From Lentimicrobium sp. L6 (lineage in GTDB: Bacteria; Bacteroidota; Bacteroidia; Bacteroidales; UBA12170), in NCBI RefSeq assembly GCF_013166655.1, contig NZ_JABKCA010000059.1, forward strand, positions 1 through 34,719: a stretch of 34,719 nt of DNA. Reading direction: 5' to 3'. Numbering within the stretch: position 1 is the stretch's first letter; each line of letters begins with the position of its first letter. This document shows, piece by piece, positions 1,816 to 31,012 of this stretch. Position numbers and translations under genes: made by a program. Under the pieces are notes generated by a model. It did not search any database, was not told the DNA's origin, and saw only the letters and a list, made by a program, of their open reading frames with translations.

Positions 1816-2436
1816 TTAGAACCCTACACTTACCCCAACACTATAGAAAGGAGCCCAATCTGAATATGGTGAATTTCTATCCTGTAATACATCAAATAAT
1901 ATTTGACCATAAGCAAAAGTATTACGACCTATTCTTTGTGCAAACCCTCCTCCAAGGAAAATAAAAGGAACACCCTGTCTGTATTTTTCATTGTTTAATC
2001 TTGAGAGTTCGTAATTGATATAACTAAATTCGGCATGCAGATAAGCCATAGGTACAAAGCGAAACCTACTAAAAACACTACCCCCATAATTACTATAACT
2101 CTGACGACCATAACCATAATAATCGTAGCTGTTATATTCATACAAACCCGTAACACCAGTTGTAAGCTTAGGAGTGAGTTTATATCCTAACAATGGATTT
2201 ATTCTAACCGAAGTAACAGAACCAAAACTAAACCCCAAACTACCTCCAATAATCACTTTATTCATTTTAAATGAAGACTTTTCCTTAGGTTTCTCTGCTT
2301 TATTTTTAGGCTGAACTTGGTGTTGATTCGCTTGCTCATGCTGAGCAGACTCATCTTTTACAAGAGTATCAGACTGTTGAGCCAGCACTGACAAACCAAA
2401 AGTAGCTAGTAAAATAATTATTAATAAGTTCTTCAT
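1816..2436 (-). CDS. Predicted outer-membrane beta-barrel protein of unknown function
   Basis: The 206-residue protein begins with a signal peptide (MKNLLIIILLATFGLSVLAQ, cleavage near residue 19-20). A charged, Gln/Lys/Glu-rich linker follows (about 21-55). The rest (about 58-206) is made of alternating amphipathic strands rich in Gly, Tyr and Phe, ending in VGVSVGF with a terminal Phe, as in small outer-membrane beta-barrels assembled by Bam. No enzyme motif is visible. The start lies only 20 bases after the stop of the BFD-like gene on the same strand, with no terminator between them, so the two may share a transcript. Function unknown. Confidence 0.7.
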   Translation of the reverse strand: MKNLLIIILLATFGLSVLAQQSDTLVKDESAQHEQANQHQVQPKNKAEKPKEKSSFKMNKVIIGGSLGFSFGSVTSVRINPLLGYKLTPKLTTGVTGLYEYNSYDYYGYGRQSYSNYGGSVFSRFRFVPMAYLHAEFSYINYELSRLNNEKYRQGVPFIFLGGGFAQRIGRNTFAYGQILFDVLQDRNSPYSDWAPFYSVGVSVGF

Positions 2437-2456: not shown

Positions 2457-2636
2457 TTATTTTTCTAATTCTCTTTGTAAGATATCTTCAACCTCTTCAG
2501 TACATGAACCACAACCAGACATGGCTCCTGTTATATCCTCTATATCTTGCAGGGTCACTGCATCCTGTTTCTCTATAGCGTGAACGATTTCATGCTCGCT
2601 AACGCTCATACAATTGCAAATGATATTGTCTTCCAT
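2457..2636 (-). CDS. BFD-like [2Fe-2S]-binding protein, 59 residues
   Basis: This short gene reads from ATG (2636-2634) to TAA (2459-2457). The product contains ICNCMSVSE (Cys7, Cys9) and MSGCGSCTEE (Cys42, Cys45). The CxC-(32 residues)-CxxC spacing and surrounding helices match the BFD-like [2Fe-2S] domain of bacterioferritin-associated ferredoxins, also found in NirB, NifU and other redox proteins. A stand-alone domain of this size suggests an electron carrier, possibly one that helps release iron from ferritin-like stores; the partner is not visible here. A match to the Bacteroidota -7 element lies at 2661-2654, with a 17-base palindrome just upstream of it, which supports an independent promoter between aroK and this gene. 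Confidence 0.88.
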   Translation of the reverse strand: MEDNIICNCMSVSEHEIVHAIEKQDAVTLQDIEDITGAMSGCGSCTEEVEDILQRELEK

Positions 2637-2653
2637 ATTTTTTTAATTTTCGG

Positions 2654-2661
2654 CAAAGTTA
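2654..2661 (-). promoter_or_regulatory. -7 promoter element (TAACTTTG) of the BFD-like gene
   Basis: On the minus strand TAACTTTG fits the Bacteroidota -7 consensus TAnnTTTG exactly and lies 17 bases before the start codon. No good TTG-type -33 element is seen at the expected distance. The palindrome at 2666-2682 occupies the spacer position. Confidence 0.55.
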
Positions 2662-2665
2662 ATCA

Positions 2666-2682
2666 TTTAGAATAATTCTAAA
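2666..2682. promoter_or_regulatory. Fur/PerR-box-like palindrome upstream of the BFD-like gene
   Basis: TTTAGAAT-A-ATTCTAAA is a perfect 8-1-8 palindrome centred on A2674. Its inner 7-1-7 arrangement resembles the boxes bound by Fur-family repressors such as Fur, PerR and Zur. It sits immediately upstream of the -7 element and overlaps the aroK stop codon (2678-2680), so a bound repressor would block polymerase. Which regulator binds it, if any, is inference; an iron- or peroxide-responsive regulator would suit a [2Fe-2S] ferredoxin target. Confidence 0.5.
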
Positions 2683-3193
2683 AGGATAATCCTTTAGACA
2701 AAAACAATTCTAAAACATCACTTACCTTCAAATCTTTACTGGGAATAATGTGCTTTGCTTGCTCATAAAAAGGATTTCTTTTTTTTAATAAAGCATCCAC
2801 AAAACCGGGAAGTTCTTCATCAACTAACTCTGCAATTAGAGGTCGACCAGCTTTCCCTTGTTTTAAGCGACTGGCCAAAAAAGCACTATCTGCATATAGA
2901 AAAAGTGTCTCGCCTAGCTGATTCATTAAACTCATATTATCATGATAACATGCCAAACCACCACCTGTACTAATTACACCATTCTCAAGTTTACCAATCT
3001 TTTTTAGATGAGAATGTTCTTGAATACGAAACTCTTCCTCTCCCCATATATCAAACAGTTCGCTAATGGTCTTTCCTTCTTCACTTTCGATGGTTTCATC
3101 AATATCAATAAAATCATAATCCAGCTGACGAGCTAGTTTTTTTCCTAAGCTCGTCTTACCGCTCCCCATCATTCCAATTATAAAAATCAACAT
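2678..3193 (-). CDS. aroK: Shikimate kinase
   Basis: The enzyme phosphorylates shikimate at O3 with ATP, the fifth step of the chorismate pathway. The 171-residue protein has the normal length and motif order: Walker A GMMGSGKT at 7-14, the shikimate-binding DIDE (Asp32) and FR (Arg56), STGGGL (Gly77-79), and GRPL (Arg117) in the lid. The start at 3193 places the Walker A motif at the usual distance. The gene is divergent from the rpsF operon and is followed by the BFD-like gene, whose predicted regulatory palindrome overlaps the aroK stop. Confidence 0.95.
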   Translation of the reverse strand: MLIFIIGMMGSGKTSLGKKLARQLDYDFIDIDETIESEEGKTISELFDIWGEEEFRIQEHSHLKKIGKLENGVISTGGGLACYHDNMSLMNQLGETLFLYADSAFLASRLKQGKAGRPLIAELVDEELPGFVDALLKKRNPFYEQAKHIIPSKDLKVSDVLELFLSKGLSF

Positions 3194-28868: not shown

Positions 28869-28901
28869 AAGGATTTGTTTTCTCAAACAAGTCCTTTTTT
28901 T
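28869..28901 (+). terminator. Terminator of transaldolase
   Basis: AAGGATTTGTTT (28869-28880) pairs with AAACAAGTCCTT (28885-28896) with one G-U wobble, loop TCTC, followed by a T-run to 28901. The convergent histidine kinase gene ends inside the T-run. Confidence 0.9.
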
Positions 28902-30858
28902 ATACCCTAGAATAAGGGATGCTAAAGTAAAAGGCGGAACCTTTACCAAATTCACTTTCAGCCCAAATTCTTCCCTCTAACATCTCCACATAGGCTTTAC
29001 AAATAGTCAAACCTAGGCCTGCTCCTTGTCGCGCTGAAACATCAATGACTTCTGCCTGAATAAACCTTTCAAAAATAGCTTCTAATCTATCCTGTTTCAC
29101 CCCTATCCCCGTATCTTTTACAAAGAACTCTAACAACTCTCCTCTTAATTCATAGCCAAACTCTATCTGGCCTACATCGGTATATTTCAGCGCATTTTTA
29201 ATCAGGTTAGCAAGAATGGCATCTAGTTTATGACCATCTGTAGAAATTATGACTTCATTATCTTTCAAACTTCTACAAGATTTTAAAATAAGTCCTTTTA
29301 AATCAGCCTCAGGCTTAAAAAAGGCATAAATATCATCTAGACTTGCGTTTACACTTATCTTGGATTTATTTAACGACATTAATCCAGATTCAATTTTAGA
29401 AATATCAACAATATCGTTGATGATATTCAACATGCGCATCCCGCTCCTCTCTATCACCTTGATATACTCCTTTTGCTCTTCGCCGCTGATATCTGGATCC
29501 TTCAATAGTTCTGAGAATCCTAATATTCCATTCATGGGAGTTCTGATTTCATGGGACATATTAGCTAAAAAGGCAGACTTTAATCTATCACTCTCCTCTG
29601 CCTTTTCCTTAGCTTCAAATAACTCACTTTCTATTTCTTTTTCCTTAGAAATATCAAATGAGATTCCTCCTATAGAAGGTTCCTCATCTGGAAAATTTAA
29701 TACAAATTTAAAATCATGAAGCCAAACTTTTTTCTCATTAATCACACATGGATATCTTAAATCGACCCTAGTCATGGCCCCATCCAAAAGGTTTTTTTCA
29801 TATCTATCGATTTGAGCTGCAACACTAGAATCAAAAACTGGTTTTAATAGGCTGCCATTCTTGGATTGCTTTAATCCTGAGATATTATTAACCATATCGT
29901 TCATATAAACTAGATTTTGATCATGGTCTTTTATATAAACAAAAGCAGGAGTATGATCCATAAAACTTTTAAAAACAGACTCGCTCTTTAAAACTTTTTG
30001 TGTGATTTGCTTTACTCTATACCTTAATAAGGCAATAAAGATAACTAATGCTAAAATCACAAGAATGATAAAAATGATTAATTGTTGCAACCATTCCGGA
30101 AATACAACTAAAGTCCCAATTTCCCCATGAGCCCATTTCTGACGAGCTACATTATAAATGGAATTTCTATCATGCTGCCATTTTAATAAATAGGTATTGA
30201 GTGTATTGATTAAGTCTTCATTCTCACCTTTCTTCACAGCAAAGAAGATATCAAAGGGATTAAAAACAATTCCAGTGGACATGAGGCCATATTGCCTGTG
30301 ATTTGGAGCTCCATAGGTATTGTTAACAACACCAGCATCCACATCTCCCGATGCAATGAGCTGAAATACAGAGGGAGAATCTGCTGTTTCGAAAAAGGTA
30401 CAAGATATGGAGAGCTTACTTACTAGCTCTTTTAAATGCGCTCCATTTTGGTCAGACTTCATTACTGCAATCACCTTTCCTTCCAAATCTAAAACACCTT
30501 GAATTTCGCTATGTGGATCCACATAGACTTCGCTCCAAACCGTAAGTAAAGGAACAGAAGAATAATCTAGGAACTCGGCTCTATCTTCGGTATAAGCAAC
30601 GCTGGTTAATAAATCGACCTCCCCATTTCTAATTCGTGTTAAACCTTCGTTCCAGGTTCCAAACACATAAACGAATTGGATATTTTCTTTGGTAGCAATC
30701 TCGTTTAATGCATCCACATAGAATCCCTTTATTTCACCATCCTCATCTTGAAATATACCAGGATGAAAACTAAAAGCTCCTACCTTTACTATTCTTTGGG
30801 CATCAACATTCCATGTGACTAATATCAATAAAGCTAATATGGTAAGTACTCTTTTCAA
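28900..30858 (-). CDS. Membrane sensor histidine kinase with periplasmic solute-binding domain and PAS domain
   Basis: The 652-residue protein has a signal peptide (1-20) and a periplasmic family 3 solute-binding domain (about 22-250, e.g. GAFSFHPGIFQDEDGEIKGF and GEVDLLTSVAYTEDRAEFLDYS). One transmembrane helix (about 257-279) precedes a PAS domain (about 292-405), a HisKA dimerisation domain with MSHEIRTPMNGILGF (phospho-acceptor His436), and an HATPase_c domain with NALKY, DTGIGV and GAGLGL. It presumably senses a small ligand such as an amino acid in the periplasm and phosphorylates a separate response regulator. It carries no receiver domain itself, and no regulator gene lies next to it. 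Confidence 0.92.
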   Translation of the reverse strand: MKRVLTILALLILVTWNVDAQRIVKVGAFSFHPGIFQDEDGEIKGFYVDALNEIATKENIQFVYVFGTWNEGLTRIRNGEVDLLTSVAYTEDRAEFLDYSSVPLLTVWSEVYVDPHSEIQGVLDLEGKVIAVMKSDQNGAHLKELVSKLSISCTFFETADSPSVFQLIASGDVDAGVVNNTYGAPNHRQYGLMSTGIVFNPFDIFFAVKKGENEDLINTLNTYLLKWQHDRNSIYNVARQKWAHGEIGTLVVFPEWLQQLIIFIILVILALVIFIALLRYRVKQITQKVLKSESVFKSFMDHTPAFVYIKDHDQNLVYMNDMVNNISGLKQSKNGSLLKPVFDSSVAAQIDRYEKNLLDGAMTRVDLRYPCVINEKKVWLHDFKFVLNFPDEEPSIGGISFDISKEKEIESELFEAKEKAEESDRLKSAFLANMSHEIRTPMNGILGFSELLKDPDISGEEQKEYIKVIERSGMRMLNIINDIVDISKIESGLMSLNKSKISVNASLDDIYAFFKPEADLKGLILKSCRSLKDNEVIISTDGHKLDAILANLIKNALKYTDVGQIEFGYELRGELLEFFVKDTGIGVKQDRLEAIFERFIQAEVIDVSARQGAGLGLTICKAYVEMLEGRIWAESEFGKGSAFYFSIPYSRV

Positions 30859-31012
30859 TTATTTTAGTTTATAGATAAATGAGCATTCTATTATTCAAAA
30901 TATTAAAATTGGTATTCAAATATAATGAAAAATATTCAGAACTCTTAATTTAAAATCATTCAAAATAAACAATTCACACGAAAAAAGAGGTTAAAAAGCA
31001 GCTATAAAACAC

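Follow-up and report, generated by a model that had tools for sequence, protein, structure and literature searches.

The region under study lies in a 34,719-nt stretch of DNA that was analysed as a whole and is called the window here. Its source genome is labelled G000; other genomes carry labels of the form G### and loci labels of the form L###. The region contains the gene for a short BFD-like [2Fe-2S] protein, the end of aroK upstream of it, a gene for an outer-membrane-protein-like product downstream of it, and a set of short elements between aroK and the BFD gene. These features, together with a second predicted site elsewhere in the window, are as follows:

1816–2436, minus strand, 206-aa outer-membrane-protein-like gene with no Pfam match
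2457–2636, minus strand, BFD-like [2Fe-2S] protein gene (ATG start, 59 aa, Fer2_BFD)
2651–2695, minus strand, 45-nt conserved block, from the alignment with the sister genome
2654–2661, minus strand, −7 promoter element TAACTTTG, an exact TAnnTTTG, from the sequence
2666–2682, no strand, predicted Fur operator TTTAGAATAATTCTAAA, a perfect 8-1-8 palindrome, from the sequence and the PWM score
2678–3193, minus strand, aroK, shikimate kinase (SKI profile, 125.7 bits)
2681–2687/2689–2695, no strand, second inverted repeat AAAGGAT-A-ATCCTTT (7-1-7) in the last aroK codons
30947–30967, no strand, further predicted site of the Fur type (20.8 bits)

The promoter elements named in the original prediction were found in place. 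The exact −7 element of the BFD gene reads from 2661 to 2654 on the minus strand, and the perfect palindrome lies 4 nt upstream of it and therefore covers the −33/−7 spacer. The consensus promoter given in PMC7366714 has TAnnTTTG at −7 and TTTG near −33. The stop codon of aroK (2678–2680) sits within the palindrome, whose edge is overlapped by the second inverted repeat (2681–2695), which is kept in the sister genome. An aroK terminator formed by the two inverted repeats was considered and rejected, since their predicted RNA fold is weak (z about −1.5). The outer-membrane-protein-type ORF begins 20 nt past the BFD stop codon, the distance originally noted. The gene order aroK-BFD-OMP is shared by four genomes, those of the window and of loci L050, L051, and L052; the amino acid identity of the outer-membrane protein is 82% in L050, and 47% is given for L051 and L052. 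The two genes probably form one operon. That the downstream gene shares the regulation of the BFD gene is plausible, given the gap of 20 nt and a gene order kept in four genomes. Identity of its product with the type IX secretion protein PorT was rejected on a profile score of 19.8 bits against a cut-off of 125. The second predicted site in the window (30947–30967) is located upstream of a sensor-kinase-like gene (28900–30858, minus strand), named by reading its translation, and is followed by a TATATTTG −7 element.

The 59-residue product is of the BFD type, as its CxC...CxxC signature had suggested. Four cysteines are arranged as C7-x-C9...C42-x2-C45, and the Fer2_BFD profile (PF04324) matches with 57.2 bits against a cut-off of 26. 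The AF2 model (pLDDT 88.3) has Bfd proteins as its top four PDB matches, with TM scores of 0.85–0.87 and Foldseek E-values of 0.014–0.063, none of them under 0.001; the best match was P. aeruginosa Bfd 4E6K (TM 0.87, rmsd 0.8 Å, E 0.014). The proposed connection with bacterioferritin was not borne out. The Bfd equivalog NF007803 (NCBIfam) scored 25.7 bits against a cut-off of 75. According to PMC12363616, Bfd is marked by Leu5 (or Ile/Val), which contacts Bfr; the equivalent residue here is Asn8, invariant in six aligned relatives. A PF00210 search of G000 (assembly 96.5% complete) revealed no Bfr or Ftn, its two matches being read as Dps and rubrerythrin. Because of the missed equivalog cut-off, the Asn in place of Leu5, and this search result, a role as a general [2Fe-2S] carrier or donor appears likelier for the 59-aa protein than bacterioferritin reduction.

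Homologues of the BFD protein were also seen in Rrf2 – 4Fe-4S ferredoxin – Hcp clusters of five genomes from other families (L168, L169, L170, L171, and L172). Cupin-like genes occur in several of these clusters, and NorB- and RIC-like genes in L171. The gene names, assigned by reading, place the clusters in a nitrosative-stress context.

The symmetry of the palindrome alone is weak evidence in AT-rich DNA, because 1.6 perfect 8-1-8 palindromes are expected per dinucleotide-shuffled window and two were observed; for one such palindrome within 2637–2800, the shuffled sequences gave P = 0.022. The palindrome at 2666–2682 scores 18.0 bits with a position weight matrix (PWM) made without any BFD site, a score with a background frequency of 2.9e-5 per position. 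The block at 2651–2695 is identical at 44 of 45 positions to sister locus L050; across the 1.4-kb alignment, where identity averages 77%, no other stretch of 45 columns is as well conserved. The palindrome itself is identical at 17 of 17 positions, the third codon positions of aroK at 47%, and the BFD proteins of the two loci are 98% identical. In the more distant loci L051 and L052 of the same genus, the BFD gene lies within a few tens of nucleotides of aroK, and both the palindrome and TAnnTTTG are absent from the aroK–BFD spacer. The operator is thus constrained where present but lineage-restricted. Sites were found at 4 of the 33 distinct BFD loci scored (the 28 best of a gene-order search plus six, 34 rows in which L022 and L054 are one locus), namely at the window locus, at L050, and at L031 and L032, two BFD genes of another family with sites of 20.6 and 19.9 bits.

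The original prediction proposed scanning for the palindrome near iron and oxidative-stress genes, and it proved to be enriched at other promoters of this kind. The sequence TTAGAATNATTCTAA has a single exact copy in G000 (5.14 Mb), and eight more sites differ by one mismatch, giving nine sites against six for the reversed control; with up to two mismatches, the counts were 118 and 85. The excess within G000 alone is therefore modest. About 50 of the 118 sites were listed, and 48 of them plus that of the window were examined, C2:79393 being left out. Across 11 genomes of the same genus, 71 sites with up to one mismatch were found against 32 for the reversed control, and 56 of the 71 are intergenic, though ORFs make up 82% of those loci. 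The aligned sites lengthen to the consensus AATTTAGAATNATTCTAAATT. Orthologous sites in the genus precede RnfB together with its divergent 102-aa neighbour, E1, E2, HemA (glutamyl-tRNA reductase), and superoxide reductase; single sites precede hemerythrin, cytochrome c, and an Rrf2 regulator. The PWM was built from 54 sites, none from BFD loci, picked partly by gene function, so that scores over 12 bits at such genes are partly circular, which does not apply to the mismatch counts. With this reservation, sites above 12 bits in G000 precede E1, E2, E3, a KorD-like ferredoxin, a NuoE-like subunit, and RnfB; 13 of the 15 are intergenic and two lie inside ORFs. Rubrerythrin of G000 is preceded by an 11.4-bit site. 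High-scoring sites in G000 also lie upstream of genes not clearly linked to iron, namely those of a porin, a response regulator, and a phosphofructokinase/kinase pair, as well as a 141-aa ORF. FeoAB is a textbook Fur target; in the genus, 1 of 11 FeoAB promoters exceeded 8 bits, hardly above the 1 of 17 for paralogous GTPases, and that of G000 reached 6.0 bits.

Several neighbours of these sites were also recorded. The 102-aa conserved protein is encoded divergently from rnfB across the Fur-type site (L092, L071, and other RnfB loci), and its L092 copy has no Pfam match. In both G000 and G002, a conserved Fur-type site precedes the gene for a 60-aa CxxC protein (L005:1599–1778 and L080), whose L005 copy has no NCBIfam match. 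The second exact copy of the motif in G002 (L066, G002:C147:1435) is flanked on one side by a reductive dehalogenase-like gene (TIGR02486, 182.7 bits) and on the other by the gene of a MarR-type regulator.

In six motif-rich genomes of other families, sites were located before the fur orthologue (L207, exact, and L242), rubrerythrin (L209 and L245), SodB (L214), FeoAB (L211), and flavodoxins (L231 and L247), and in two further genomes before SufB (L199) and a cbb3 oxidase (L193), these gene names coming mostly from reading translated starts and not from profile searches. The recurrence in this or related genomes also includes PFOR, and the FeoAB site in G224 scores 26.3 bits. In total, 58 distinct sites were annotated, comprising all those of G066, G224, G072, G176, and G034 and part of those of others (3 of 17 in G095, plus eight hand-picked sites of five other genomes); five further exact sites were also looked at outside the 58. 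Six identical sites TTTAGAACTATTCTAAA were observed on six contigs of G095, three of them within 110 bp of the contig start, a distribution that would suit a repeated element carrying the site.

A tally of sites against the match to the Fur orthologue took in all 247 genomes, split at an E-value of 1e-42 chosen by the analyst. The 150 genomes with a Fur orthologue at E ≤ 1e-42 contain 393 sites against 51 in the control, and the other 97 contain 59 against 20 (49 against 20 without G066). The excess is thus weaker, but not absent, in genomes with a weak or no Fur match. The contrast has a P of about 1e-15, a value that overstates independence because the genomes share ancestry. G066, with ten sites against none in the control, has a poor Fur match only, perhaps owing to a gap in this metagenome-assembled genome.

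A PF01475 search of G000 identified two FUR-family genes, one Fur-like (G000:C29:5224–5685) and one Zur-like by its neighbours. The best solved relatives of the Fur-like protein are the Fur chains 2w57 (1.9e-18) and 8j6w (6.7e-18), and its VLEF motif shares the Glu of VIEF in Fur chains. As is expected of a Fur operator, a site recurs upstream of fur itself as well as at iron-related promoters. The fur promoter of G000 has a 19.0-bit site upstream of its −7 element, and among 30 fur orthologue promoters, that of G000 included, 15 score over 8 bits, as do 43 of 1720 windows chosen at random. In 18 of the 30 promoters, the best site starts with [TA]ATTTTTATT. In the 200 nt upstream of the Zur-like gene, no site was found (best score −6.9), which does not fit a Zur operator. 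The palindrome had been called Fur/PerR-like. The Fur half of that guess is supported by the conservation of the block, the recurrence at iron-related genes, and the co-occurrence with one Fur orthologue; the peroxide half found no support, with no site above 6.8 bits at the dps-peroxiredoxin pair of G000. Judged from sequence comparison, the palindrome is quite likely a Fur operator ahead of the BFD-like ferredoxin gene. Several results speak against this reading: the small share of BFD loci with a site, the mostly weak or missing sites at FeoAB promoters of the genus, the modest excess within G000, the remaining excess in genomes that lack a strong Fur match, and the scores of Rrf2 promoters.

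In an alternative reading, the palindrome is the operator of an Rrf2-family Fe-S/NO-type regulator (NsrR/IscR-like) with a related site at its own gene. The Rrf2 gene of G004 does have a site 63–77 bp upstream of its ATG, several orthologues in the genus have partial sites, 8 of 27 Rrf2 promoters elsewhere exceed 8 bits, and the Rrf2-ferredoxin-Hcp clusters described above contain BFD homologues. Fur is preferred because the sites in other families precede the fur orthologue, FeoAB, rubrerythrin, SodB, and flavodoxins, and on the 247-genome tally. In that tally, the excess persists where a strong Fur match occurs without an Rrf2 of this kind (137 against 26 sites, n = 61), it is absent where Rrf2 occurs with a weak or no Fur match (5 against 9 sites, n = 11), and the effect of Rrf2 among Fur-positive genomes is not significant (P = 0.18). 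Moreover, Rrf2 promoters of the genus keep just one half-site. Ownership by Rrf2 seems improbable; its promoter matches could reflect control of rrf2 by Fur or a PWM that is too permissive. The retained half-site is TCTAAAT-like in the rrf2 promoters L124–L126 and L128–L133, and several rrf2 promoters carry a second, AGTAATT...AATTGCT-like inverted repeat, perhaps the operator of Rrf2 itself.

A PerR-type peroxide operator would share the core AATNATT, which is common to PerR boxes, and would suit superoxide reductase and hemA among the targets in the genus and rubrerythrin elsewhere. The FUR-family genes found in G000, however, are one Fur-like and one Zur-like, and the Fur-like protein aligns best with Fur chains, keeping the Glu where PerR has Asp. 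The targets FeoAB, flavodoxin, and SufB fit iron, and the dps-peroxiredoxin pair of G000, beside a LysR/OxyR-type gene (L326, G000:C13), has no site above 6.8 bits. With neither a PerR protein nor sites at peroxide genes found in G000, we give this reading little chance, and peroxide defence at L326 appears to be under separate control. Hardly more credit is due to a chance palindrome, with the BFD gene transcribed from the −7 element or by read-through from aroK. The 1.6 palindromes expected per shuffled window and the BFD genes of L051 and L052, near aroK without palindrome or TAnnTTTG in the spacer, would agree with it; the 17/17 conservation in the sister locus, the fit to a PWM free of BFD sites, and the intergenic bias of the motif argue against it. 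Control by Fur is the reading followed below.

In the proposed mechanism, Fur charged with Fe(II) would occupy the BFD promoter between its −33 and −7 regions and thereby keep RNA polymerase out. At low iron, Fur would leave and the 59-aa [2Fe-2S] protein would be made, probably together with the product of the outer-membrane protein gene 20 nt downstream. In general terms, the 59-aa protein may then serve as a [2Fe-2S] electron carrier or as a cluster donor that cells short of iron require. The sequences show the site and its place in the promoter, its conservation, its recurrence at iron-related genes and at fur, and its co-occurrence with the Fur orthologue; that Fur binds there and represses, with iron as its signal, is inferred. 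The centre of the BFD site lies upstream of the −7 element by 13 bp in both genomes of the genus (window and L050) and by 15 bp in L031; in L032 it lies 19 bp downstream of the element. All these positions are consistent with repression by occlusion.

A wider and more speculative proposal, which we consider possible but rather less than even, is that in this branch of Bacteroidales a single type of Fur site acts as a switch of iron economy that works in two directions, with the BFD gene in the repressed class and serving a low-iron role independent of bacterioferritin. The repressed class, with the site over the core promoter, would include BFD, flavodoxin, FeoAB, SufB, fur, and the iron-free 2-oxoacid dehydrogenase E1/E2/E3. 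In a second class, activated by Fe-Fur, the same site would lie 33–56 bp upstream of the −7 element of genes for iron-rich enzymes: superoxide reductase, rubrerythrin, hemerythrin, PFOR, NuoE, SdhC, and the gene divergent from Rnf. A site within 28 bp of the −7 element was found in 14 of 15 iron-sparing or iron-acquiring gene groups and in 2 of 9 iron-rich ones (Fisher P 0.0007), in a contrast that was post hoc and grouped by hand, with the 102-aa gene standing for Rnf. It left out genes without an exact −7 element (E1b L228, KorD, L004, cytochrome c, L209, and L005), RnfB and HemA, whose sites lie >140 bp from the −7 element, and Rrf2; SdhC and two E1 promoters each offer a choice of two −7 elements.

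A Fur box defined by its sequence, together with a regulon predicted in many families, would give direct targets for gel-shift and RNA-seq experiments. It also suggests that the choice between iron-free dehydrogenases and ferredoxin-linked Fe-S oxidoreductases may depend on iron. BFD-like ferredoxins are here set apart from bacterioferritin, so that their usual annotation could be misleading.

Compared with known systems, the predicted operator resembles the Fur box of the E. coli and B. subtilis type in its odd-centred palindrome, its AATNATT core, and its overlap with promoters. It differs in consensus, which is AATTTAGAATNATTCTAAATT here and GATAATGATAATCATTATC in E. coli. The predicted regulon, like other Fur regulons, has sites before fur, iron uptake, flavodoxin, Suf, SOD, and rubrerythrin genes, and differs in that many targets are central-metabolism enzymes (E1/E2/E3, Kor, PFOR, and Rnf). 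With Bfd (E. coli bfd and P. aeruginosa Bfd 4E6K), the 59-aa protein shares the CxC...CxxC signature, the size, the fold, and apparent Fur control; it departs from Bfd in Asn8 for Leu5, the equivalog score (25.7 against 75), and the failure to find Bfr/Ftn in G000. The BFD-like domains of NirB and NifU gave the best NCBIfam scores (38.3 and 37.5 bits), whereas the protein here is a stand-alone one of 59 aa, far under the whole-protein cut-offs of those families. Fur operators are best known from Proteobacteria and Firmicutes, and no operator consensus for a Bacteroidetes Fur was found in the literature searched. Porphyromonas gingivalis PgFur/Har and Bacteroides fragilis Fur are, like the G000 protein, FUR-family proteins of Bacteroidetes. 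BfFur is called iron-responsive in PMC4222909, and PgFur is described in PMC6613475 as a separate subfamily that lacks the regulatory histidine motif and does not bind the E. coli Fur box. Unlike PgFur, the Fur-like protein of G000 keeps HDHF. As far as the literature searched shows, the predicted BFD operator is ordinary in its logic and new in its sequence and lineage.
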